The translations under genes and the position numbers were made by a program. A stretch of 64,000 bases of DNA from Roseivirga ehrenbergii (lineage in GTDB: Bacteria > Bacteroidota > Bacteroidia > Cytophagales > Cyclobacteriaceae), in contig NZ_LQZQ01000002.1 in the NCBI RefSeq assembly GCF_001593005.1, positions 186,001 through 250,000 of the forward strand. Reading direction: 5' to 3'. The notes below the pieces were generated by a model that searched no databases, had not been told where the DNA came from, and saw only the letters and a program-made list of their open reading frames with translations. Numbering within the stretch: the first letter of the stretch is position 1; the number at the start of each line of letters is the position of its first letter. Shown in pieces: positions 18,569 to 54,208 of this stretch.

Positions 18569-19258
18569 CTAAAAAATCAACTGCCACCTAAAAGCCCACA
18601 TCCAGCGTAGCTTGAAAAACGGAATGTCGGCTTGCTTCATGATTTTTTCTAACTCTGCTTTTTTGAAGGCCCTCCTTACCGAAAGCGGGGCATCGTTTTT
18701 TACCATCTCAGATTTGGAGAAAAAGTGAGTCAGCCATTTGATTAAAAACTCGGCCAAACCATGGCGATGTAAATCATTAATTACCGTCCCTTTTTTTGCT
18801 TGGGTTTTAAACTGATTGAAAATATTGATGAGTTGTTCATCGGTAAAGTGGTGGGTAAAGAGGGTACAAAGAATGACATCGAATTGCCTTTCTTTAAATG
18901 CTTCTGAAAAAATATCAGACACTTCGAAACGGATGTTCGGGTAGGCCTTACAGTTCTCTATGGCGTACTCCACAATGGCGGGATTGGCGTCAAAACCGAC
19001 CAGATCAACTTCTAGCTTTCTTTGCTTTGCCCACTGCGCAACAAGCTTTAGCATATCACCTCCGCCACAGCCCAAGTCGGCAATTACAAGTTTCTCATTC
19101 GTTTGTGACCGAATGAGTTTATCCAAACCATTAATGGTCACAAAGTTTCCACCGAGCCATTTATTGATGGTTTCTAGCTCCTTTAGCGTCTGCGAAATTA
19201 CCTCACCAGAGACCTCAAGGTCATCCATTAATTCTTCTTCGTATGATCGGCTGCTCAA
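18569..19258 (-). CDS. Class I SAM-dependent methyltransferase of the PKS cluster
   Basis: 229 residues starting with TTG at 19258. The upstream frame closes with TAA and no ATG exists before the conserved RSYEEELMDDLEVSGEVI start, so TTG is the likely initiator. The SAM site is KLVIADLGCGGGDMLKLV, followed by VDLVGFDANPAIVEYA and FDVILCTLFTHHFTDEQLI. The C-terminal SVRRAFKKAELEKIMKQADI helix is typical for small-molecule O- or C-methyltransferases next to type III PKS genes. It follows the PKS and the small BamE-like gene on the same strand. A role in methylating the polyketide is analogous to SrsB of Streptomyces, and is inferred. Confidence 0.85.
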   Translation of the reverse strand: MSSRSYEEELMDDLEVSGEVISQTLKELETINKWLGGNFVTINGLDKLIRSQTNEKLVIADLGCGGGDMLKLVAQWAKQRKLEVDLVGFDANPAIVEYAIENCKAYPNIRFEVSDIFSEAFKERQFDVILCTLFTHHFTDEQLINIFNQFKTQAKKGTVINDLHRHGLAEFLIKWLTHFFSKSEMVKNDAPLSVRRAFKKAELEKIMKQADIPFFKLRWMWAFRWQLIF

Positions 19259-19284
19259 TGTATTATTTTAAAGGTCAATATTTT

Positions 19285-19605
19285 TCATTCAAAGTAGACA
19301 ATCCGTTTTACTATCCCCAAAGAGTCGAAATGAATATAAATACCATCTGATGCAAGGTATGGAGGCTGATAATAGAACGAAGGAACATTACTCTCTGAAT
19401 CATATTCATTTCTCGCATCAGGCTCACCCATTATGCTTTTTACCTGCAATGAGTCCATTCCTATTTCCAGCTTTTCGGAGTTGGTCACATTTTGTTTGCT
19501 TTTTCTGGCAACAGCATTCCATTCTGTAAAGTAGAAAAACACTAAAACCAGCAGTGAAACTAAAACACCAATAAATATGAAAACCTTTTTCATTACCTTA
19601 AACAT
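19285..19605 (-). CDS. Membrane-anchored BamE/SmpA-like small protein
   Basis: 106 residues if started at the ATG of 19605, which overlaps the PKS stop as TGATG; the ATG at 19593 (MKKVFIFIGVLVSLLVLVFF) is an alternative. One N-terminal hydrophobic helix anchors it. The rest, KLEIGMDSLQVKSIMGEPDA followed by FDSLGIVKRIVYFE, has the two-strand/helix pattern of SmpA/BamE-like domains. There is no lipobox Cys. It may be an envelope accessory protein; a role in the polyketide pathway is unclear and only suggested by the tight coupling. Confidence 0.65.
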   Translation of the reverse strand: MFKVMKKVFIFIGVLVSLLVLVFFYFTEWNAVARKSKQNVTNSEKLEIGMDSLQVKSIMGEPDARNEYDSESNVPSFYYQPPYLASDGIYIHFDSLGIVKRIVYFE

Positions 19606-20696
19606 CAAGCAATTTCCAATACCATCGACTCCAAGGTAAGGCCGGGGCCAAAGGCTACCGAAAGACAATTTTCGCCTTTTGTAGGCTTTTCTTGCATCAG
19701 TTTTTCCAATACAAAGATTAGAGTAGCGGACGACATATTTCCATAATTCTGGAGCACCTCATAGGCATAACGGTTATCGTTTTTGTCAAGATTTAGTTCT
19801 TGTTCAATCACTTCTAAAATCCGCTTTCCGCCTGGATGAATGGCATATTGTTGAATAGAACTTCCTCCCATTTTCGTTTTCAATTGGTCAATCATTCCCT
19901 CAATACCTGACTCAATTAGTATAGGCACGTAAGAAGAAAGCTTCATTTCGAAGCCAAAATCACCAATGTCCCAAGCCATGTTCTCGCCACCATCATTCAG
20001 TATTTGATTATGGAAGGCTACGGGCGATAAGCCTTTATTTCCTTGTTCTGAAGAAGTCATTAAAAGGGCTGCTGCGCCATCGCTGAAAAGTGCGTTGGCC
20101 AGTAAATTATCCTCGTCTGTTTTGTTCTGAAAATGAATGGTACATAGCTCCGTTGAAACCACCAAAACTTTAGCTTTGGGATCGGCTTTGCAAAAAGCAT
20201 CAGCGGTACGAATACCCGTTATGGCTGCATAACAGCCCATAAAATTGATGCAAGTACGCTGAACATTGGGTCTTAATTTTAGTCCATTGACCAAATCAAT
20301 ATCTAAACCAGGGGCATACATACCTGTGCAACTAATGGTGATCAAATGGGTAACTTCGTCCAGTTTTATATTCGATTTTTGAATGCAGTTTCTCACTGCC
20401 TGCATGGCCAAATCTGGTGCTGTTTCTTTATATAAAAGTGACCGTTGTTGGGTTGTTGGGAAAGGGCTGAGGTCTTTACTTTTGGGGTAGAATGTCCAGT
20501 CTTCCATATTCAGACTACCGTAATCCGGAATTACAGAATGGCGGGTTTGAATTCCACTAGCGCGGTAAAGTGCTTTCAGTCGGGTTTTATCCTTACCTTC
20601 AAACCCATGGGCATTTGCCATAAACTCAAGAATTTCCTTCTGAGGAATTTTGTTTTCCGGAACTGCGGTGCCTATGGCCGATATGACTGATCTCAC
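19605..20696 (-). CDS. Type III polyketide synthase (chalcone/stilbene synthase family)
   Basis: 363 residues starting with GTG at 20696, since no earlier ATG fits. The thiolase-fold catalytic triad is intact: Cys155 in INFMGCYAAITGIRTADAFC, His287 in YAIHPGGKRILEVIEQ and Asn320 in LQNYGNMSSATLIFVLEKL. Such enzymes condense malonyl-CoA onto an acyl starter and cyclise to resorcinols, pyrones or phloroglucinols. With a methyltransferase, a UbiA prenyltransferase and a flavin oxidoreductase around it, an alkylresorcinol/quinone-like lipid is a reasonable guess, by analogy with srsABC of Streptomyces. It is divergent from UbiA with only 50 bp between starts. Confidence 0.95.
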   Translation of the reverse strand: MRSVISAIGTAVPENKIPQKEILEFMANAHGFEGKDKTRLKALYRASGIQTRHSVIPDYGSLNMEDWTFYPKSKDLSPFPTTQQRSLLYKETAPDLAMQAVRNCIQKSNIKLDEVTHLITISCTGMYAPGLDIDLVNGLKLRPNVQRTCINFMGCYAAITGIRTADAFCKADPKAKVLVVSTELCTIHFQNKTDEDNLLANALFSDGAAALLMTSSEQGNKGLSPVAFHNQILNDGGENMAWDIGDFGFEMKLSSYVPILIESGIEGMIDQLKTKMGGSSIQQYAIHPGGKRILEVIEQELNLDKNDNRYAYEVLQNYGNMSSATLIFVLEKLMQEKPTKGENCLSVAFGPGLTLESMVLEIA

Positions 20697-20746
20697 GTTC
20701 TATATTATCCTTTTTTCCGCTAAATTGTTCAGTATAACTTCCACAT

Positions 20747-21652
20747 ATGTTTAAAAAGTCAACTTGGTTACATTTAAGAATTCCGTTTAGCTACTTTCTT
20801 CTCCCTATCTATTTCTTTGGAATTTCTATTAGCCCCAACCTAAGTGAGCCCAATCTGCTCTGGCTTTTTATTATTCTTCATCTTTTTATTTACCCTGCCA
20901 GTAATGCGTTTAACAGCTATTTCGACAAGGATGAAAAGAGCATTGGTGGCCTAAAAAACCCACCTCCCGTTGATAGAAATCTGCTTTACATGGCTTGGCT
21001 TTTCGATATCATCGGAATTGCACTTTCCATTTGGCAGTTCAAAAACAACTGGACGTTGACGCTTATGCTACTTGTCTATATTCTGGTTTCAAGGGCATAC
21101 AGCCACCCTTCAATTCGATTAAAAAAATATGCCCTCCTGAGCTGGTTTATCGCTGGGCTTTTTCAAGGCGCTTGGGTAGTTTGGATCATTTACATTGGGC
21201 TTAATAATTTCGAGTTCAGTCATATTTTAAAACCTCATGTCCTTATTCCTGGACTTTTGGCCTCTGTTATTTTGTGGGGGGCTTATCCTATGACCCAAAT
21301 TTATCAACATGAAGAAGATACCAAAAGAGGTGACAAAACCCTCAGTATAAAGTTGGGGATTAAAGGCACTTTTCTATTCACCGCTGTCTTTTTTGTGATG
21401 GCAGCAGTGCTTTATTTCTTCTATTTTGACGCCTATCATCAAACTAAATATGGCTGGACGTTTATTATCGCAATGATCCCTATTGTTCTCTTTTTTATAG
21501 GCTGGTTTTTAGCGGTGCTTAAAAATGAAGACAAAGCGAATTACAAAAATACCATGTGGCTGAACTTTATTTCGGCTACCTGTTTGGGTGGGTTTTTCCT
21601 CTACTTTTTTCTGGATTCTACTAACATTTTATCGGCAGTGGGTCAATACTAA
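20747..21652 (+). CDS. UbiA-family prenyltransferase
   Basis: A 301-residue integral membrane protein with about eight helices. The first polar Mg/diphosphate motif is NAFNSYFDKDEKSIGGL near residue 63. The second is IYQHEEDTKRGDKTLSIKLG near residue 184, with a DxxxxD pattern. UbiA enzymes attach isoprenyl chains to aromatic or related acceptors. The gene shares a 50-bp divergent promoter region with the type III PKS, which suggests that the PKS product is the acceptor, though lipid or quinone substrates from elsewhere cannot be excluded. The motif is NxxxDxD-like rather than the textbook NDxxDxxxD. Confidence 0.88.
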   Translation: MFKKSTWLHLRIPFSYFLLPIYFFGISISPNLSEPNLLWLFIILHLFIYPASNAFNSYFDKDEKSIGGLKNPPPVDRNLLYMAWLFDIIGIALSIWQFKNNWTLTLMLLVYILVSRAYSHPSIRLKKYALLSWFIAGLFQGAWVVWIIYIGLNNFEFSHILKPHVLIPGLLASVILWGAYPMTQIYQHEEDTKRGDKTLSIKLGIKGTFLFTAVFFVMAAVLYFFYFDAYHQTKYGWTFIIAMIPIVLFFIGWFLAVLKNEDKANYKNTMWLNFISATCLGGFFLYFFLDSTNILSAVGQY

Positions 21653-22014: not shown

Positions 22015-25000
22015 ATGATAAAGTATTATATTACTTATACACATATATTCATACTCTTTTTATTTACCTATCAGTACTCTCAAGGCCAAGCTATTAGCGC
22101 TTCATTGTCCGGGCGATCTTTACTTATAAAGGCCGATTCGTTGATTAATATTCAATCTCTGGAGAGTGCCCAAGAAGTATTGAGTCTAGCTTCAGCTCAA
22201 GCATTGAGAGAAAAAGACACTCTTAGTTATTTACAAAGTCTAAATAAAAAGGCGTATACTTTTAGTAAACAAGCTCAATATGATAGTTCTCTGATAGTAG
22301 CTAGAGCTAGCATTCAATTGATGCATGAACTGCCTTACACTGACCCGATTTTATTAGCTGAACTTTCCAGAAGCATTGGCCTAGTTTATGAATTAAGAGA
22401 CAATGATCTATCAAAAGCTGCTGAAGAATACCAAAAAGGTTTAAAAGTACTTAATAGTTTGGAGGGTGATAAGCCATATTTGTCAATAGAGCTTAGCAAA
22501 GATCTAGTCATTATCCTATTAACTAAAGGACTCATAGATTCTGCTTCAACAGCTTTGGATACCATTATAAATAGTCAAGAAATCTATTTTTCAGAAAAGC
22601 ATATGGAATTGGCTGATACTTACCGACTAAAAGCTGTTGGTTTAAGTATTTCTAACTACACGATTGAAGCTATAAAATACTACAACAAAGCACTGTCATC
22701 TCTAAACAAAGCAAAAAAATCAAAAAGAACACAAAAGGGCAAAGCCGACATATTAGGAAACATTGGAAACTTACACCATTTGTCTGGCTATTACGATTCT
22801 GCGTTTATCTACTATAGCAAGCAAAAAAACATTAATGAGATTGTATTAAGCGAGAACGATAAATCATTAGCAAACCTTTACAGAAACCTTAGTTCAATAC
22901 ATCAATTCAAAGGCTATTATGATTCAGCCATTTACTATGCTAGAAAAAGCCTAAACATTACAGAATTAACATTATCAAAAAATCATCCGGATTTAGCTGA
23001 GTCATATAGTGCTTTGGCTATTACTCTTCAGCAAGAAGGTAAAATCCAAGAATCACTTGTCTACTATTCCAAATCTTTCGAAATAATTGAGTCCAACTTT
23101 GGCCTGAATCACTGGCGTACTTACAATGTTTTATCGCAATTAGGGATAGCACAGAGTGGTTTAGGTGACTACACTAAGTCTAATGAATACTTTAAACAGG
23201 CCATCAGTATTGGGCTCAATGGAGATTTCGCAAACATAGAATCAATCGTCAGAAATCATTTATATTTAGCAGACAATTTTATAAAAATTGGAGACTTAGA
23301 AAAAGCTAACAAAGCAATTTCCAAAGCCAATGAGTTAACACATAAATTACCTAGTGTTAACCATCAAATTTTTGGTGAAGTGCAAATTCGAAAAGGTGTA
23401 CTTTATAACCAGCAAAAGAATCCGCTAAAAGCAGAAGAGTCCTTTTTGAATGCTTATAAAAGCTTTATAAATATTTTTGGGGAGCGCCATCCAAGAGTAG
23501 GGGAAATACTTATTCAGTTGGCCAAACTGAAAATAGAAAATCAAGAATTGGTTGAGGCCAAAGAGCTTTTATGGAAAGCTATTCTTTCAAATACATACGA
23601 GTATGAAGAAGTTAAATTAGGGGTAGTTCCTAGGTCATATAACATAATAAACCCATTACAAACCATTCAATCCCTTGAGCTACTAGCTAAAGTCGAATGG
23701 GAAATTTCAGAAACTGAAAACGACTTATCGTTCCTTCAAAAAAGTCGTGAGTTATACGACACTCTACTAAACCTGTTAGCAGAAATCCTATTTGAAACCA
23801 CCCAAGAAGAAGATCTTGCTCAAATAATCAAGTTATTTCACGCCAACTATTCAAGTGCAATAAACCTTTTATATGAAATGAAGGAAAAAGGCATTCTGGA
23901 TGAACAAGAGTATCTAGAGAATCATTTCAACTATTCTGAGGCTTCTAAGGGTATTGTAACTTCTTATTCTCTATTCAAACATAAAGCTCTAAAATCATTC
24001 AAAGGTAAATCTAATCAAGTGGATAGTCTTAGGTCTATTACTAAAGAAGCTTCCTTTGTAAAAAGTCAAATAACCACGTTTGAGATCGAATATCCCAATA
24101 ATGAAAATTTAAAATACTACCAAGATTGGCTTTTCAACCTTCTAAATAAAAAAAGACAGATCCTTTCAAAGCTCGAATCAGAGGAAACAACTTTCAAAAA
24201 TTTCTTGGAAGAAAGCATGATGAAATCTGTTGATATAATTCAGAAAGAAGTTGGTTATACACATACTATAATTGAGTATTTCTTAACGGACGACAAGTTA
24301 TTTACCTTGCTAATCAAAAAGAATGAAACTAAAGTATCTGCCCAAACTCTAAACGACAATTTCTTACAGCAAATCAGTAACCACCAGAGCCTTAAGAACA
24401 ATGATATAGAAAATTACGCACGGGGCAGCAGAGCACTTTATGACATACTTATTGCCCCAATAAAAAGCGATTTAAAAGACATAGAGAAACTCCTTATTAT
24501 TCCTGACAAGACACTATGGAATGTGAATTTCGGGCTACTATTAACTGATGATAAAGAGCATATAGATACAAAAAAACTTCCATACCTTTTAAAGGATTAC
24601 CAAATAAGCTATGCTTATGCAGTTAAGCTCATGGGTAAAAACCCTCCCAAGCAGGAACAATTGGATAACAAGAAAGTACTGGCTTTAGCTTATGGTGATG
24701 ATAATGGTACAAAGCCTCAACTTTCATCATTTAGAAACACCCCTCTTGCTAAAATACGGGGGACTGCTTTTGAATTAAAAGCTATTGAAAAATTAGTTGA
24801 TGGGGATTTCATTTACGGGCAAAAGGCAACTGAAGCATTATTCAAAGAAAAAAGCTCTGAGTACGGAATACTTCACTTAGCTATGCATGGAGTAATGATC
24901 GACAGCTCAATTAATGAATCCTATTTGGCGTTTTTTGCTGATAGTTTACAAGAAGAAGATGGAAGGTTATATCCATTCGAGTTGACTGAATTAGACCTCA

Positions 25001-25422
25001 GTGCGGATCTCGCAGTTTTGAGTGCATGCGAAACTGGGGCTGGAAAGATTGTCAACGGAGAGGGGGTTATGAGTATTGGGAGAGGGTTCTTTAACGCTGG
25101 TGTGAAAAGCCTTTTATTGACACAATGGCCCCTTTCTGATGCTGTGGCTCCCGAAATTATGGAGAGCTTTTATCAATATTTAAACAAAGGAATTGATAAA
25201 GATGAGGCCTTAAGAAGCGCTCAATTGGATTTTTTAGAAAACGCAAACAACATATCGGCAAATCCGTATTATTGGGGAAGCTTTTTTATACTTGGAGATA
25301 CTGAGCCTATAGATTTTAGACCTCGCACCCCTCGCTGGTATTATATTGTTGTAGCCTCAATCCTTTTATTTCTTGCAGTTCTTGCATTACGCAAGAAAAA
25401 GCGGAGAGGACAAAGAAGCTAA
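22015..25422 (+). CDS. Secreted, membrane-anchored TPR-CHAT cysteine protease-like protein
   Basis: 1135 residues. A signal peptide (about residues 1-25, IFILFLFTYQYSQGQA) is followed by many tetratricopeptide repeats to about residue 520 (for example YDSAFIYYSKQKN, YDSAIYYARKSLNITE). A helical linker leads to a CHAT domain near 850-1100 and a C-terminal TM helix (about 1109-1126) with a basic KKKRRGQRS tail. The caspase-like dyad is intact: His958 in ILHLAMHGVM and Cys1005 in VLSACETGAGKIVNGEGVM. This topology puts TPR and CHAT in the periplasm. It is convergent with a TPR-bearing anti-sigma gene (4-bp overlap), an obvious candidate substrate. The second paralogue is at 33137. Confidence 0.88.
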   Translation: MIKYYITYTHIFILFLFTYQYSQGQAISASLSGRSLLIKADSLINIQSLESAQEVLSLASAQALREKDTLSYLQSLNKKAYTFSKQAQYDSSLIVARASIQLMHELPYTDPILLAELSRSIGLVYELRDNDLSKAAEEYQKGLKVLNSLEGDKPYLSIELSKDLVIILLTKGLIDSASTALDTIINSQEIYFSEKHMELADTYRLKAVGLSISNYTIEAIKYYNKALSSLNKAKKSKRTQKGKADILGNIGNLHHLSGYYDSAFIYYSKQKNINEIVLSENDKSLANLYRNLSSIHQFKGYYDSAIYYARKSLNITELTLSKNHPDLAESYSALAITLQQEGKIQESLVYYSKSFEIIESNFGLNHWRTYNVLSQLGIAQSGLGDYTKSNEYFKQAISIGLNGDFANIESIVRNHLYLADNFIKIGDLEKANKAISKANELTHKLPSVNHQIFGEVQIRKGVLYNQQKNPLKAEESFLNAYKSFINIFGERHPRVGEILIQLAKLKIENQELVEAKELLWKAILSNTYEYEEVKLGVVPRSYNIINPLQTIQSLELLAKVEWEISETENDLSFLQKSRELYDTLLNLLAEILFETTQEEDLAQIIKLFHANYSSAINLLYEMKEKGILDEQEYLENHFNYSEASKGIVTSYSLFKHKALKSFKGKSNQVDSLRSITKEASFVKSQITTFEIEYPNNENLKYYQDWLFNLLNKKRQILSKLESEETTFKNFLEESMMKSVDIIQKEVGYTHTIIEYFLTDDKLFTLLIKKNETKVSAQTLNDNFLQQISNHQSLKNNDIENYARGSRALYDILIAPIKSDLKDIEKLLIIPDKTLWNVNFGLLLTDDKEHIDTKKLPYLLKDYQISYAYAVKLMGKNPPKQEQLDNKKVLALAYGDDNGTKPQLSSFRNTPLAKIRGTAFELKAIEKLVDGDFIYGQKATEALFKEKSSEYGILHLAMHGVMIDSSINESYLAFFADSLQEEDGRLYPFELTELDLSADLAVLSACETGAGKIVNGEGVMSIGRGFFNAGVKSLLLTQWPLSDAVAPEIMESFYQYLNKGIDKDEALRSAQLDFLENANNISANPYYWGSFFILGDTEPIDFRPRTPRWYYIVVASILLFLAVLALRKKKRRGQRS

Positions 25423-26126
25423 TCATTAATAGCGCTTAACAGTTTTTGAGCATTCTTGTATTCAAAGTCCCCTTCTTCTATTAAAAGAAGGGATTCCCGC
25501 GCCAATGTTATATCTCCCTTTTGCCAATATGCTAAACCTAAATACCACCTGGTCTGTTGGTAATATTCGTTAGATGGATCTGTTCCAATGCTTAGAAATA
25601 AGTTAACTGCCTCTTCAAATTTTTCACTCCCCAGTGCACTCATCGCAAAATAAAACTTCAAAGCCTCATTAAGATTAACATCATTTGACTTATCAAAAAG
25701 ATCATATGCTTCCTTATATTCTCTATCCGAATATGCCTCTAGCGCCTTAGAAAAATCTGTTTCTCCCAAGTTTCTAAATGTGATTAATTGGTCAAAGTGA
25801 TCAAAGTAATTATCGAATTTTGGGCCAGAGGAATCTCTCTGAATTAAGAAAAAGCTGACAACTCCTATGAGAATAACGGAGGCAGCCACAGCTATAATTC
25901 TGGAGAACGACAGACTACCTCTACCCACTAAATCTCGATGTTTTTCTTTTAATTCAGCTTTCAATCCTTCTGCTTCCAAATGGCTTTGAACGTCAAGATA
26001 GTCCTCTATGAATTTACTTAACTCCATAGGATCTAGGGGCTCATTATTAACAGAAAGCACCTCCTCTTTGGTAATTTCGCCAACAATGTATTTTTCTAAT
26101 AATTCAAGGTTTATTTCCTTACTCAT
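25419..26126 (-). CDS. Membrane anti-sigma-like protein with periplasmic TPR domain
   Basis: 235 residues from the ATG at 26126; the frame is open 15 codons further, but this start overlaps the sigma stop by 8 bp (ATGAGTAA). Residues 1-70 are soluble and acidic, and include EKYIVGEITKEEV, which resembles the sigma-binding N-terminus of Bacteroidota anti-sigma factors. A TM helix spans about 77-95 (IIAVAASVILIGVVSFFLI). Residues 110-235 are tetratricopeptide-like (ALEAYSDREYKEAYDLFDKS, TRWYLGLAYWQKGDITLARE), predicted periplasmic. No FecR domain is present. Together with the sigma and CHAT genes it suggests a regulated-proteolysis switch; that is inference. Confidence 0.75.
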   Translation of the reverse strand: MSKEINLELLEKYIVGEITKEEVLSVNNEPLDPMELSKFIEDYLDVQSHLEAEGLKAELKEKHRDLVGRGSLSFSRIIAVAASVILIGVVSFFLIQRDSSGPKFDNYFDHFDQLITFRNLGETDFSKALEAYSDREYKEAYDLFDKSNDVNLNEALKFYFAMSALGSEKFEEAVNLFLSIGTDPSNEYYQQTRWYLGLAYWQKGDITLARESLLLIEEGDFEYKNAQKLLSAIND

Positions 26127-26682
26127 TGCTAAAATCAGTTCTCCGAATCTTATTTTTATTAACATAGGCAATCAACTTCTGTAAGCACCTATACTTTTTA
26201 TTTTTAGCCACCTTCTCACTGGCCAACTTATATTTCTCAGAGATTTCCCTCATTGAAATACTCCTGTAGTAAAAATCAATCAGTAGCTCCGAGCAGCCCT
26301 TATCAATCTTATTCAATACCTCTCGAACGATTATTTGATTTTCGTATATAACCACTTCTTCCTGAAAACCAGAAGTATTATCAATTTCTTCAAAAACAGT
26401 TAGCGATGATTTCTTAATTTTTTTTAACCATATATTTCGATTAATACCAAAAAGGTAAGCGCCAATATCTAAATTTAAATTCGGTTCCTTTTTTAGTTTC
26501 AAATAGAACACTACCAATGTATCTTGAAAAACATCTGCAGCATCGGCTTCTGTACCACTATTCTTTAAAACATAACTTTGGCAAGTCGCATAATACTTTG
26601 CATATAAATACTTAAATGCAGCATTCTTGTTCTTGTCGACCGTTGATAGTAATTGATCAGCTAAACTCTTATTTGTCATCAT
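26119..26682 (-). CDS. ECF-type RNA polymerase sigma factor of the CHAT module
   Basis: 187 residues with region 2 (FKYLYAKYYATCQSYVLKN, then EADAADVFQDTLVVFYLKLK and YLFGINRNIWLKKIKK) and a region 4 helix-turn-helix (CSELLIDFYYRSISMREISE, KYRCLQKLIAYVNKN). The region 4 part is somewhat diverged: EKYKLASEKVAKNKKYRCLQ is more basic than usual. It may start at 26682 or one codon later (MM). It is cotranscribed with the downstream anti-sigma gene (8-bp overlap) and divergent from a small secreted protein at 26899, a plausible target. Confidence 0.85.
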   Translation of the reverse strand: MMTNKSLADQLLSTVDKNKNAAFKYLYAKYYATCQSYVLKNSGTEADAADVFQDTLVVFYLKLKKEPNLNLDIGAYLFGINRNIWLKKIKKSSLTVFEEIDNTSGFQEEVVIYENQIIVREVLNKIDKGCSELLIDFYYRSISMREISEKYKLASEKVAKNKKYRCLQKLIAYVNKNKIRRTDFSNE

Positions 26683-26898
26683 TCAAAAACCTTCTAGGTT
26701 CTAAACCTAAAATAAAACTATTTCTATCTGAACTACTAATAACAATCAATCCCCACAACTTGCTGATTTCAAACTGCTAACAGTAAAATTTAATTAGCTC
26801 AAATAAAATTTGAAAAAACATGATGACCTTTTGACTTTAAAAGAGACTAGTAGGTGAATATCAAGAAAGTCTTGATTGTAAACTAAAATTAATTAAAA

Positions 26899-27387
26899 AT
26901 GAGAAAATTATTTATCGCTTTACTTGGCGTATTCGCAATGGCCCAAATTACTCAAGCCCAAGACTTGCCTGGGGACCTCTTAATACCAGGCGGATCAGCT
27001 ACAATGAATTATCAAACTGAATTTCGCCCTTATTTTGCGCTAGGTGTAAGCTCAATGCCAGGTGCTGGTATGATCTTTCCTCTTATAGAGATGAATGCAA
27101 ACGCCACATTAGAAGATGGAGAGTTCGAACAATTAAATTCCTATAGCTTTTCATTACCTGAGGGTAGCGGAGGAGTTCTTTACACTGGCCATGGAGAAAT
27201 TAAGATATCCGATAAACAAATGTGGATAGAATCTTCTGATCCAGAAATAATCTCCTGGTTCGTAAAAATTAAATACACTGCCATATCAGGTAATCATGAG
27301 TATTTCTTGATCACAGGAAATATTTCATTCAGTGAATTTATTAACAATTCTGGTGGTGGTCCAGGTGGTCCAATTATTATGTATTAA
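26899..27387 (+). CDS. Small secreted protein divergent from the CHAT-module sigma factor
   Basis: 162 residues with a standard signal peptide (MRKLFIALLGVFAMAQITQA). The mature part is mainly beta-strand by composition: FRPYFALGVSSMPGAGMIFP, GVLYTGHGEIKISDKQMWIE and a Gly/Pro-rich end (NNSGGGPGGPIIMY). I recognise no family. Start regions of this gene and the sigma gene face each other across 216 bp, so it may belong to the sigma regulon. A good hairpin terminator follows 10 bp after the stop, making it a single-gene unit. Confidence 0.7.
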   Translation: MRKLFIALLGVFAMAQITQAQDLPGDLLIPGGSATMNYQTEFRPYFALGVSSMPGAGMIFPLIEMNANATLEDGEFEQLNSYSFSLPEGSGGVLYTGHGEIKISDKQMWIESSDPEIISWFVKIKYTAISGNHEYFLITGNISFSEFINNSGGGPGGPIIMY

Positions 27388-27497: not shown

Positions 27498-28613
27498 CTA
27501 AAACGGCTTTCCGTGTGTGTTCTTCATGATTTTTTTCGCCAACCAAGGTGAATTTTTCATTACCGAAAGGGCAGCGTTACTGCTCCATTTTGAACCAAAA
27601 AAGGACTGGGTTTTTCTTCCCACCCAAAGCCTTCTTTTAAAAGTCGTATTCCATTTCTCACTGTAAGCACTTTCCACTTTTTGCCTGTCCCAACTCTCTG
27701 AAAGGGCATGTTCAGCAATGGTGTCGGAGAGAATTTTAGCAGAGTGAATTGCCATCGCCATTCCATTGCCGCACAAAGGAGTAATGAGGCCAGCAGTATC
27801 TCCCGACATCAGAATATGGTTTTCAATTAACTTCTTGGGACGAAAAGAAAATGCATTAATTACCACCGGTTTTTCGTGCACAAATTCAGCATTATCGAAA
27901 ATGGATTTTAGAAACGGATTGACTTTAAGTACTTGCGCTTCCATGGCCTCTACAGAGCCCGCTGTTTTCAAATCTTCTCTTCTTCCCAAATAGCATAAGT
28001 TAAATTGATCGTTTTCAATGGCTACGATACCGCAATAGCCTCCTTCAAAGTTATGTAAAGCCACCAAGTCTCTAGGAAAATCTGTTTTAATGTGGTGTTT
28101 TACACCAATAAATGGCGTGTCAAACTTCAAATAATTCCGCTCAAGTTTTTTATCCAGCACCCCGTTTTTGCCATAAGCCCCAATCACTAAATCAGCATAG
28201 TAAACTTCATTGGTGCTACTTTCTAGTTTGAATTGATCGTTGCCAAATTCAACATTAATGATGGATGTATTCTCGAGAATTTTTGCCCCAGATGTTCTGG
28301 CTTGATTTGCCAAAAAATCATCGAGTAAAAAACGGCTTATACCAAAACCGCCTAAATCCAGTGGCATGGTTAAACACTGACCGTTAAAAGCACTGATTTG
28401 AAACTTACTAATTTGCGGGAAGTCGTGGTTTTCAGGCAGAAGATTCTCTACTTTCATGAAGTCTAACACTTCATTTGAAAGGTATTCTCCACATACTTTA
28501 TGGAAGGGGTACTGCTTTTTTTCAAAAAGCAAAACCTCGAAATTCAAGCGAGAAAGTCGTACAGCAGTCACTAAGCCTGCTAAACCTCCACCAATTATTG
28601 CTATTTTTTTCAA
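27498..28613 (-). CDS. FAD-dependent oxidoreductase of the PKS cluster (geranylgeranyl-reductase-like)
   Basis: 371 residues starting with TTG at 28613 (KKIAIIGGGLAGLVTAVRLS), the Rossmann GxGxxG FAD site. Further motifs are FHKVCGEYLSNEVLDFM and the GD-box GDTAGLITPLCGNGMAMAI, both characteristic of GGR/PHBH-type flavoproteins. It is of the kind commonly found with type III PKS and methyltransferase genes in Bacteroidota, where it may hydroxylate or reduce the polyketide (SrsC-like role). Here it is separated from the PKS by the CHAT/sigma block. The non-ATG start is shared with the PKS and methyltransferase genes. Confidence 0.85.
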   Translation of the reverse strand: MKKIAIIGGGLAGLVTAVRLSRLNFEVLLFEKKQYPFHKVCGEYLSNEVLDFMKVENLLPENHDFPQISKFQISAFNGQCLTMPLDLGGFGISRFLLDDFLANQARTSGAKILENTSIINVEFGNDQFKLESSTNEVYYADLVIGAYGKNGVLDKKLERNYLKFDTPFIGVKHHIKTDFPRDLVALHNFEGGYCGIVAIENDQFNLCYLGRREDLKTAGSVEAMEAQVLKVNPFLKSIFDNAEFVHEKPVVINAFSFRPKKLIENHILMSGDTAGLITPLCGNGMAMAIHSAKILSDTIAEHALSESWDRQKVESAYSEKWNTTFKRRLWVGRKTQSFFGSKWSSNAALSVMKNSPWLAKKIMKNTHGKPF

Positions 28614-52594: not shown

Positions 52595-53167
52595 TTGACC
52601 GATAAAGCATTAATTGACCAAATCAAAAACGGAGACGAAAGTGCTTTCGAAAGCCTATTTCGAGAGTACTTTAAAGTGCTTTCTGTTTTCGCTAAGAAAT
52701 TTCTGAATGATCTAGATGCTGCGCAAGACATCGTTCAGGAAGTCTTTGTCAAATTTTATGAGCAGAGAGAAAAACTAGAAGTTCATACTTCGCTCAAGGC
52801 GCTGCTGTACCAATCGGTGCGCAATCGATGCTTGGACCAAATCCGCAGTACACAAACCCGTAGCGGCCACCACGACAATATTCTAGCGGCTTCTTTCGGA
52901 GCCGATATCGATACTTCTGATTTTATGGAGCAGGCGGAATTGGAACAAATGATTTACAATTCTATTGCCCAGTTGCCCGAACAATGTCAGCTCATTTTTA
53001 AGATGAGTCGATTAGAAGGAAAGAAGAACCAAGAGATAGCCGATGAGCTCGGAATTTCGAAACGCACGGTAGAAACCCAGATCAGCAATGCGCTCAAACG
53101 CCTTCGCCTCGATCTTTTTGAATACCTAAAAGCATTGATAATCATTGCTTTAGAAATTCTTTCATAA
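52595..53167 (+). CDS. ECF-type RNA polymerase sigma factor, FecR-partnered
   Basis: 190 residues starting with TTG at 52595 (TDKALIDQIKNGDESAFESL); no ATG fits the conserved beginning. Region 2 shows LDAAQDIVQEVFVKFYEQRE and SLKALLYQSVRNRCLDQIRS. Region 4 shows LPEQCQLIFKMSRLEGKKNQ and EIADELGISKRTVETQISNA. The FecR anti-sigma gene follows after 57 bp. In Bacteroidota this pair normally controls a TonB receptor; here two beta-barrel proteins follow instead. Confidence 0.92.
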   Translation: MTDKALIDQIKNGDESAFESLFREYFKVLSVFAKKFLNDLDAAQDIVQEVFVKFYEQREKLEVHTSLKALLYQSVRNRCLDQIRSTQTRSGHHDNILAASFGADIDTSDFMEQAELEQMIYNSIAQLPEQCQLIFKMSRLEGKKNQEIADELGISKRTVETQISNALKRLRLDLFEYLKALIIIALEILS

Positions 53168-53224
53168 AATTTTCAATTGGGTCTACGTGTGTTTTATCAC
53201 TAGGCCGTCATATTACTGAACTCA

Positions 53225-54208
53225 ATGAAAAACAGAAGCACCATAGACGAACACCTGCTACTTTCCTACTTAAAGGGAGAGGCCACCGAGGCTGAACTTC
53301 AGCAAGTGGAAGCTTGGTTGGCGCTGGATGAAGGCAATGCTGCTTTGCTTAACAAATGGAAACAGGCTTGGCGACATGCTGATGCCATGGCTGATTTTAC
53401 TACGATTGATGTAGACAAAAATTGGTCGCAAGTGCAAGGCAAGATTCAACCTAAACAAGCAAAGCAGGTATTCTTGTTGCCAAAAATATGGCGCGTGGCT
53501 GCAGCCATTTTGCTGATTGCTACGGTAGCGTTTTTAGGAAGGGAATTTATGAACAATTCTGCTGGAGAAATGCAAAGCCTAATGGCGGCCAGCTTAAACG
53601 GTGAAGCTGCTGTACTCCCAGATGGTTCGCAGGTTTGGCTAAAAGAAGGCTCTTCAATCACTTTTCCAGAAGAATTTTCTTCCAAGGAAAGAGAAGTAAT
53701 CTTAAAAGGGGAAGGCTTTTTTGAGGTGGCACATAATCCTGAACAACCTTTTATTGTAAAGGCCAAACAGACAGAAACTCGGGTTTTAGGCACCTCTTTC
53801 AATTTAAATGCTTCGCAAGAAGGGGAAAGAATTGAACTGGTTTTAATAACAGGAAAAGTAAGATTTTCTACCCAAGAAGAGGTGGTGGTTTTAGCCCCTG
53901 GCGATCAGGTAGTGATTGATGAAGGCGGAAAGCTATCTAAAAAGGAAAATTCAAACGGAAATTTCTTGGCTTGGAAAACAGGCACTTTGGTTTTCGAAAA
54001 CACGCCAATGAAACAAGTAATGGAGGACATTGCGAATGCTTATGGGATTGGCTATGAATTCGAAAATACAGCCTTTATGAATTGCCCACTGACGACAAGA
54101 TTCGAAAATGAATCCATAGAAAATGTGTTGCAAGCCATTGAAGCCCTATTCGATATAGAAATAGAAGAAAATAACGGAGCATATATTATTAAAGGAAACG
54201 GATGTTAA
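53225..54208 (+). CDS. FecR-family anti-sigma factor
   Basis: 327 residues. The cytoplasmic sigma-binding part (residues 1-85, LLLSYLKGEATEAELQQVEA, LNKWKQAWRHADAM) is followed by one TM helix at about 89-107. The periplasmic FecR domain comes next (ILKGEGFFEVAHNPEQPFIV, TRVLGTSFNLNA), and then a C-terminal DUF4974 domain that has the STN-like fold (FENTPMKQVMEDIANAYGIG). It receives a signal from an STN domain of an outer-membrane partner, in this locus presumably the fusion protein at 55061. Confidence 0.92.
   Translation: MKNRSTIDEHLLLSYLKGEATEAELQQVEAWLALDEGNAALLNKWKQAWRHADAMADFTTIDVDKNWSQVQGKIQPKQAKQVFLLPKIWRVAAAILLIATVAFLGREFMNNSAGEMQSLMAASLNGEAAVLPDGSQVWLKEGSSITFPEEFSSKEREVILKGEGFFEVAHNPEQPFIVKAKQTETRVLGTSFNLNASQEGERIELVLITGKVRFSTQEEVVVLAPGDQVVIDEGGKLSKKENSNGNFLAWKTGTLVFENTPMKQVMEDIANAYGIGYEFENTAFMNCPLTTRFENESIENVLQAIEALFDIEIEENNGAYIIKGNGC

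Follow-up and report, generated by a model that had tools for sequence, protein, structure and literature searches.

The window analysed here, a stretch of 64,000 nucleotides from Roseivirga ehrenbergii, carries a gene module composed of an extracytoplasmic function (ECF)-type sigma factor, a predicted anti-sigma factor with a transmembrane (TM) helix and tetratricopeptide repeats (TPRs), and a caspase-like TPR-CHAT protease. Comparison of this module with its relatives indicated that the protease quite probably cuts the neighbouring anti-sigma factor after residue 118, which would start the destruction of the anti-sigma factor and free the sigma factor. Sigma factor, TM-TPR anti-sigma factor and TPR-CHAT protease were found to be a recurrent module across Bacteroidota, and the anti-sigma residue at position 118 was found to co-vary with active-site positions of CHAT, as is expected of a protease-substrate pair. 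An earlier, sequence-only reading of this DNA, according to which the CHAT protein may cleave the anti-sigma factor and so release the sigma factor, is supported by these comparisons.

Components and predicted membrane topology of the module

The protease gene (22015..25422, forward strand) encodes a protein of 1135 aa with an N-terminal hydrophobic stretch, TPRs, a CHAT domain (residues 805-1095, positions 24427..25299; Pfam PF12770, 194.3 bits against a cut-off of 24), a C-terminal TM segment (about residues 1108-1125, positions 25336..25389, from the hydrophobicity of the sequence) and a basic tail. The catalytic dyad, which the sequence-only reading had described as intact, was present as His958 (codon 24886..24888) and Cys1005 (codon 25027..25029) and was invariant in all 125 aligned CHATs. 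Convergent with the protease gene, and overlapping it by 4 bases at the CHAT stop, is the gene for the TM-TPR protein (25419..26126, reverse strand; 235 aa from the ATG), for which position and topology suggest an anti-sigma role. Its TM helix was placed at about residues 77-95 (25842..25898, reverse strand) from the alignment and a low-confidence model, and its periplasmic juxtamembrane linker at residues 97-127 (25746..25838, reverse strand) from the alignment of relatives. A TTG at 26171 was considered as the start of this gene and set aside, the ATG at 26126 being likelier; even with this ATG as start, the open reading frame (ORF) and the end of the sigma gene overlap. TPRs were present in the anti-sigma factor as described earlier, but were weak in Pfam (TPR_16, 16.5 bits against a cut-off of 32.7). 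The sigma gene (26119..26682, reverse strand; 187 aa) was likewise found ahead of the TM-TPR gene as stated before, with scores just below the curated cut-offs for TIGR02937 (42.6 bits against 42.9) and, in region 2, below that for Sigma70_r2 of Pfam (19.7 bits against 24).

In a hydropathy test of 111 full-length module CHATs, a C-terminal TM segment was noted in 106, a basic tail in 101 and an N-terminal hydrophobic stretch in 104. By hydropathy and charge, 170 of 185 anti-sigma factors had a single TM segment with the more positive flank on the N-terminal side, i.e., an N-in orientation. Because of this placement of TM segments and pattern of charge, the periplasm is the predicted location of the CHAT domain as well as of the linker and TPRs of the anti-sigma factor, all of which should lie near the membrane. 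The location of CHAT domain and anti-sigma TPRs on the same side of the membrane, which had been assumed from simple topology, is thus also predicted by this simple test.

Recurrence and linkage of the module

The first survey, performed with the anti-sigma factor as query, covered 59 genomes including that of R. ehrenbergii and gave matches in 28. The window and 60 regions were examined, the latter covering all of the listed matches except one fragment (G011:C5). Among the 65 anti-sigma genes scored in these regions, 59 had a sigma gene of this kind directly upstream; one of the 65 was a FecR-type gene in the window that matched weakly, and linkage was tested against chance with 64. A CHAT gene was present within 1 kb of 45 of these 64 genes (window included) and within 3 kb of 49, whereas the numbers expected by chance, computed from the per-genome counts of CHAT and anti-sigma matches, were approximately 0.43 and 0.73 of 64, respectively. 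This arrangement is far beyond chance, and the co-occurrence of the three genes, which the sequence-only reading had left to be surveyed, is conserved. The 49 linked cases were convergent in 33 instances, divergent in 8, co-directional with CHAT downstream in 7 and co-directional with CHAT upstream in 1, so that the same partners were kept despite varied gene order.

A wider search matched the anti-sigma family in 178 of 296 phylum genomes at E 1e-8, with weak or partial TPR matches accounting for many of them, and at E 1e-20 in 174 of 390 genomes from the order and 108 of 396 from the class. CHAT genes were present in 50 of the 59 genomes searched, that of R. ehrenbergii included.

FecR-type anti-sigma factors and their ECF sigma factors occur in the same genomes and provided a control, but none of 105 was within 10 kb of a CHAT gene among the matches listed (18 genomes, in which 49 of 86 CHATs were listed). 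The 105 were those, out of 124 FecR rows taken, whose genome had one or more CHATs in the list, which was limited by E-value; in the four genomes with every CHAT listed, 0 of 28 FecR-type anti-sigma factors were within 10 kb of one. On the same CHAT list, 24 of 37 places with an anti-sigma factor of the module type were within 5 kb of a CHAT among the matches listed. The window itself contains a second sigma gene followed by a FecR-type anti-sigma gene (52595-54208; FecR-type match at C2:239612-239863). No CHAT lies within 10 kb of it, which makes it a built-in negative control.

Some loci departed from the one-to-one arrangement. In L067, L068 and L070 a single CHAT gene was near two sigma/anti-sigma pairs, so that one may ask whether the protease serves two anti-sigma factors, and in L075, L079 and L112 a tandem pair of CHAT genes was near a single sigma/anti-sigma pair. 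A CHAT-only protein of 251 aa (L167:6781-7533) was encoded directly 3' of an anti-sigma gene and convergent with a longer gene with a weak CHAT match. In one genome of 4.1 Mb from the same order (G037), CHAT was matched 33 times and FecR not at all.

The linker residue at the predicted cut site

The linker between the TM helix and the first TPR was of variable length and contained one outstanding residue, which is R118 of the window protein (codon 25773..25775, reverse strand). In an alignment of 124 relatives, Arg occupied this position in 103 and Lys in 6 (anti-sigma factors below 60 bits were left out of this alignment and those below 65 bits out of the later set). Among 121 pairs, residue 118 was Arg in 94, Met in 15, Lys in 7, Gln in 2, and Leu, His and a gap in 1 each, while residue 119 was Gly in 62, Ser in 35, Asn in 9, Asp in 6 and another residue in 9, i.e., Gly, Ser, Asn or Asp in 112 and Gly or Ser in 97. 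From this conservation and the co-variation described below, we infer that residue 118 is the P1 residue, which predicts a cut between R118 and N119 in the window protein.

Co-variation of the linker residue with the CHAT active site

The first set comprised 86 CHATs, each taken with the nearest anti-sigma factor, including some more than 3.5 kb away. In this set, 77 CHATs with Asp at position 1042 (codon 25138..25140, forward strand, in the window) were paired with linkers containing Arg and the nine others with linkers that lacked Arg at the site. The association was retained in a hold-out for D1042 (60 new regions with 36 anti-sigma factors that had a CHAT within 3.5 kb), where 34 of 36 pairs fit; D1042 was present in 24 (22 with Arg, the exceptions being L288 and L300) and E1042 in 12, all with Met-type linkers, and the non-Arg cases with a residue other than Asp at 1042 all belonged to this Met clade. 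When 293 CHAT columns were scanned against linker Arg, E920 (codon 24772..24774, forward strand) ranked first and D1042 second.

D1042 had emerged from the first 86 CHATs and could be tested both on the hold-out and on the following set. E920 emerged from the full 115 pairs, and for it only the following set is out of sample. For a further subfamily, a prediction was fixed before the sequences were retrieved, and all seven CHAT-bearing regions among eight new ones fit; three had Arg linkers with E920 and D1042, while three with Lys and one with Gln had neither residue. A Kordia locus with the two genes 4.6 kb apart also fit the prediction. Over 123 pairs, E920 and D1042 were both present in 94 of 96 Arg pairs, whereas E920 was present in none of the 27 non-Arg pairs, 25 of which lacked both residues. 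In seven of nine tabulated genomes with several modules, both kinds of module were present, and every pair in them sorted as predicted.

Parsimony on a tree built without columns 920 and 1042 indicated three losses of Arg (17, 7 and 4 tips) and one possible regain. Tree-based likelihood ratios of 38.4 (p 9e-8) and 33.2 (p 1e-6) favoured dependent evolution, these values being rough because few events carry the signal. In a label-free scan of 64,390 pairs of anti-sigma and CHAT columns, the combinations of 118 with 920, 1042, 956, 1003 and 914 occupied ranks 1 to 5; without the Met clade, 920 ranked 1, 956 ranked 2, 1042 ranked 4 and 1003 ranked 13. Positions 956 and 1003 are two residues before the catalytic His and Cys, respectively. 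Q161 of caspase-3 stands two residues before the catalytic Cys of that enzyme. The scissile residue seems to be matched to the protease within each module, Arg being predicted to go with E920 and D1042, and Lys, Gln or Met with altered pockets.

CHAT domains below 90 bits or shorter than 200 or 150 aa were left out of these sets, as were ten CHATs with no anti-sigma factor within 3.5 kb and L344, at a contig end and with no CHAT; two pairs were kept despite distance, namely P0005 with L154 (118 kb, by orthology) and L351 (4.6 kb). Column 118 was misplaced in the alignment of all anti-sigma factors, and for the column scan and tree tests the linker states were instead set by a text rule applied to the linker as a whole, those of the last set (eight pairs) being read by eye; the label-free alignment recovered column 118.

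Predicted S1 pocket

According to a model of separase, the P1 Arg is held by two acids, a Glu in the segment that joins strand 1 to helix 1 and an Asp at the N-terminal end of helix 4, and a further S1 contact at the end of strand 4 is provided by Q161 of caspase-3 and D462 of MALT1 (PMC4626109). E920, D1042 and S1003 of the window CHAT fit like topological places and are therefore candidates for an S1 pocket. It is from this separase model (PMC4626109) that the pocket location of the two putative S1 acids, shared by the 94 Arg-paired CHATs counted above, is taken. A weak model of the CHAT domain placed D1042 two residues before a helix, in agreement with the separase model and of no weight alone.

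A search of the Protein Data Bank with the window CHAT alone gave no match, while a search with a CHAT profile of 47 rows matched craspase TPR-CHATs and 8rot.

Proposed mechanism and alternative explanations

In the proposed mechanism, the TM-TPR anti-sigma factor would hold the sigma factor at the membrane, and an envelope signal, sensed by the TPRs of the CHAT protein, would activate this TPR part. The CHAT domain would then cut the linker after residue 118 (R118/N119 in the window protein), and a second protease, perhaps the one M50 site-2 protease matched in the genome (C2:126629-127861), would process the shortened anti-sigma factor, with release of the sigma factor.

The chief rival, which we consider unlikely, is that the linker occupies the CHAT active site uncut as a securin-like pseudosubstrate that keeps the protease off, the real substrate lying elsewhere. 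The same contacts would then be made without a cut, and the same S1 co-variation would be expected; separase, moreover, is held inactive by securin (PMC9729208). The predominance of a small residue at position 119 (Gly or Ser in 97 of 121) is instead as expected after a scissile bond, and release of a sigma factor by cutting of a membrane anti-sigma factor is established for DegS/RseA (named in PMC10028731).

Considerably less likely is that the protease is the product rather than the trigger of the circuit, i.e., that the sigma factor drives CHAT transcription, that CHAT acts on other targets in cell death or defence and that linkage of the genes reflects co-regulation. Many ECF sigma factors autoregulate (PMC10028731), so neighbouring genes may share their control; CHAT was co-directionally downstream of the anti-sigma gene in 7 of 49 linked cases, and a bacterial TPR-CHAT protease is described as cleaving gasdermin in defence (PMC9729208). 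Neither the co-variation of a single linker residue with the CHAT active site nor the preponderance of convergent order (33 of 49) is predicted from this arrangement, however.

That shared ancestry alone accounts for the findings, the module clades differing at many columns and the link of 118 with 920 and 1042 being a lineage effect, is hardly credible, for although the Met clade (16 CHATs and L288) has a single origin and supplies most of the non-Arg cases, the three independent losses of Arg, the tree-based tests, the top ranks kept by 920, 956 and 1042 without that clade, the sorting within genomes, the fit of 7 of 7 new pairs inside one subfamily and the selection of active-site columns, which lineage effects are not expected to pick, all argue against it.

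Cleavage of the linker after residue 118 is accordingly the reading we prefer, and the following points weigh against it. Both cleavage and sigma release are read from comparison of sequences. Scores for the sigma factor and the anti-sigma TPRs are under curated cut-offs, although relatives lend support to both assignments. Four pairs were exceptions to the co-variation, namely L288 (Leu linker with D1042), L300 (Lys with D1042), L122 (Arg followed by neither Gly nor Ser, and no E920) and L078 (no E920 in the alignment), and one Lys-type CHAT (L348) had a different acid, Asp, at 920. The identity of the P1 residue is less certain in the Met clade because this clade retains an acid (E1042). The Asp of separase that reads the P1 Arg, D2151, has K670 as its counterpart in the craspase TPR-CHAT according to PMC9729208, where Csx30 is cited as being cut after Leu, whereas in our profile alignment S666 of the craspase protein was opposite D1042; because S666 rather than K670 aligns with D1042, the equivalence of D1042 to D2151 is tentative. 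AlphaFold, run with 3 rows for the CHAT half and 2 rows for the anti-sigma factor, gave models (pLDDT 49.6 and 50.8) too poor for E920, D1042 and R118 to be placed in them.

A last point of this kind concerns Arg linkers with no CHAT nearby. By a loose rule (Arg anywhere in the linker), 32 of 114 sigma-linked anti-sigma factors had such a linker and no CHAT within 3.5 kb. For six of the 32, a CHAT was matched slightly farther off, at 3.6-4.4 kb (weakly in two cases), and many of the regions ended soon after. The remaining Arg linkers must be served by a distant CHAT or another protease, or Arg must have another role in them. Some genomes carried several CHATs. In one genus, 22 of 30 genomes with an anti-sigma match had no CHAT match; among three linkers from these CHAT-less genomes, two had no Arg at the site (with a later Arg-Pro) and one had Arg-Glu. 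In one family (f5), five pairs with no CHAT nearby lacked Arg at the site while the one with a CHAT 875 bp away had Arg-Gly, and five of the six genomes carried CHATs elsewhere. One CHAT-less sigma/anti-sigma pair (L107:3514-6798) was convergent with a gene for a protein of 1094 aa read as a zinc-ribbon adenylate cyclase, possibly by chance.

A second CHAT protease and a probable split module

The window encodes a second TPR-CHAT protease (P0005; 33077..36211, forward strand), the probable partner of a sigma/anti-sigma pair at C2:99104-100674, outside the window and 118 kb away. Along most of its sequence, this protease was 32-40% identical to the CHATs of nine relatives that are encoded beside an anti-sigma factor of a type of approximately 340 aa, and in these nine relatives the counterparts of the second CHAT and of the distant pair are direct neighbours. 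Both halves were probably kept as partners after the module was split, and the match between them is kept as well, in that the linker of the distant anti-sigma factor (L154) has Arg-Gly and P0005 has the E and D.

Anti-sigma factors of the approximately 340-aa subtype (L095, L097, L108 and L085) had an extra conserved C-terminal portion of approximately 90-100 residues after the TPRs.

Relation to known systems

Craspase/CASP of type III-E (Cas7-11, Csx29, Csx30 and CASP-sigma) also uses a TPR-CHAT protease whose target restrains an ECF-type sigma factor (PMC10028731). The module differs in that its partners are predicted to be membrane-bound and to act in the periplasm. The cut is also predicted elsewhere, at an Arg in the linker of the TM-TPR anti-sigma factor, the cleavage of Csx30 being the work of an RNA-guided complex. 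No RAMP/Cas7-11 effector (PF03787) was matched in the R. ehrenbergii genome, and against the Csx29 profile NF041237 (cut-off 300) the window CHAT (P0002) gave no match and the second CHAT 28.2 bits. Membership in craspase was rejected on these grounds, i.e., the lack of a RAMP match and the missed Csx29 cut-off, no search for a CRISPR array having been made. The module is predicted to work like the protease arm of craspase and is not itself craspase.

Several other systems resemble the module in part. The EACC2-caspase group likewise has a caspase-fold protease, an ECF sigma factor and a TPR (DUF1822) protein as gene neighbours; it is described as EACC2 and caspase-domain proteins with variable C-termini, and the accessible portion of that source proposes no TM anti-sigma factor or cut site (PMC8195603). 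The likeness to DegS/RseP-RseA-sigmaE lies in a periplasmic first cut of a membrane anti-sigma factor, likely followed by a site-2 cut, for which an M50 protease is present here; the predicted site-1 protease of the module is, unlike DegS, a caspase-fold cysteine protease that bears TPRs and is often encoded beside its substrate. Separase, a CHAT relative, has a P1 Arg and two S1 acids at like places in the model of PMC4626109, but is eukaryotic and cleaves cohesin, while the bacterial pairs vary linker residue and pocket together. No description of a TPR-CHAT/TM-TPR anti-sigma/ECF module was found in the literature searched, which consisted chiefly of titles and the openings of abstracts, and the literature on ECF classification may mention one.

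To our knowledge, few CHAT proteases have a known substrate. The module offers a candidate CHAT substrate with a predicted scissile bond, putative pocket residues and natural variants of specificity, which makes its role directly testable. It also offers a CRISPR-free setting as a possible origin for the logic of craspase (caspase-fold protease, anti-sigma factor and sigma factor), and orthogonal protease/sigma switches might be drawn from it. Whether Bacteroidota contain a large, unrecognised family of private caspase-to-sigma lines, tuned at S1 and insulated from one another by swaps among Arg, Lys, Gln and Met, with craspase as an RNA-controlled offshoot of a general CHAT/anti-sigma switch, is in our estimation an evenly balanced question.

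Neighbouring genes

The small gene divergent from the module (26899-27387), which had been proposed as a member of the sigma regulon, is a genuine ORF that lies outside the conserved module. No relative of it was found by phmmer at E 1 among ORFs of at least 70 aa in the 180 regions retrieved; its proposed place in the regulon found no support, and it was dropped both as a part of the module and as a regulon member. A defence-system reading of the locus was also set aside, PADLOC matches being marginal only (E 0.026 and 0.036).

On one side the module is flanked by genes for a methyltransferase, a type III polyketide synthase and a UbiA prenyltransferase (18569-21652), and on the other by a gene for an FAD oxidoreductase (27498-28613). 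Three of these flanking genes were assigned by Pfam and the methyltransferase by reading of its ORF, and the position of the module resembles an insertion into a small biosynthetic cluster.

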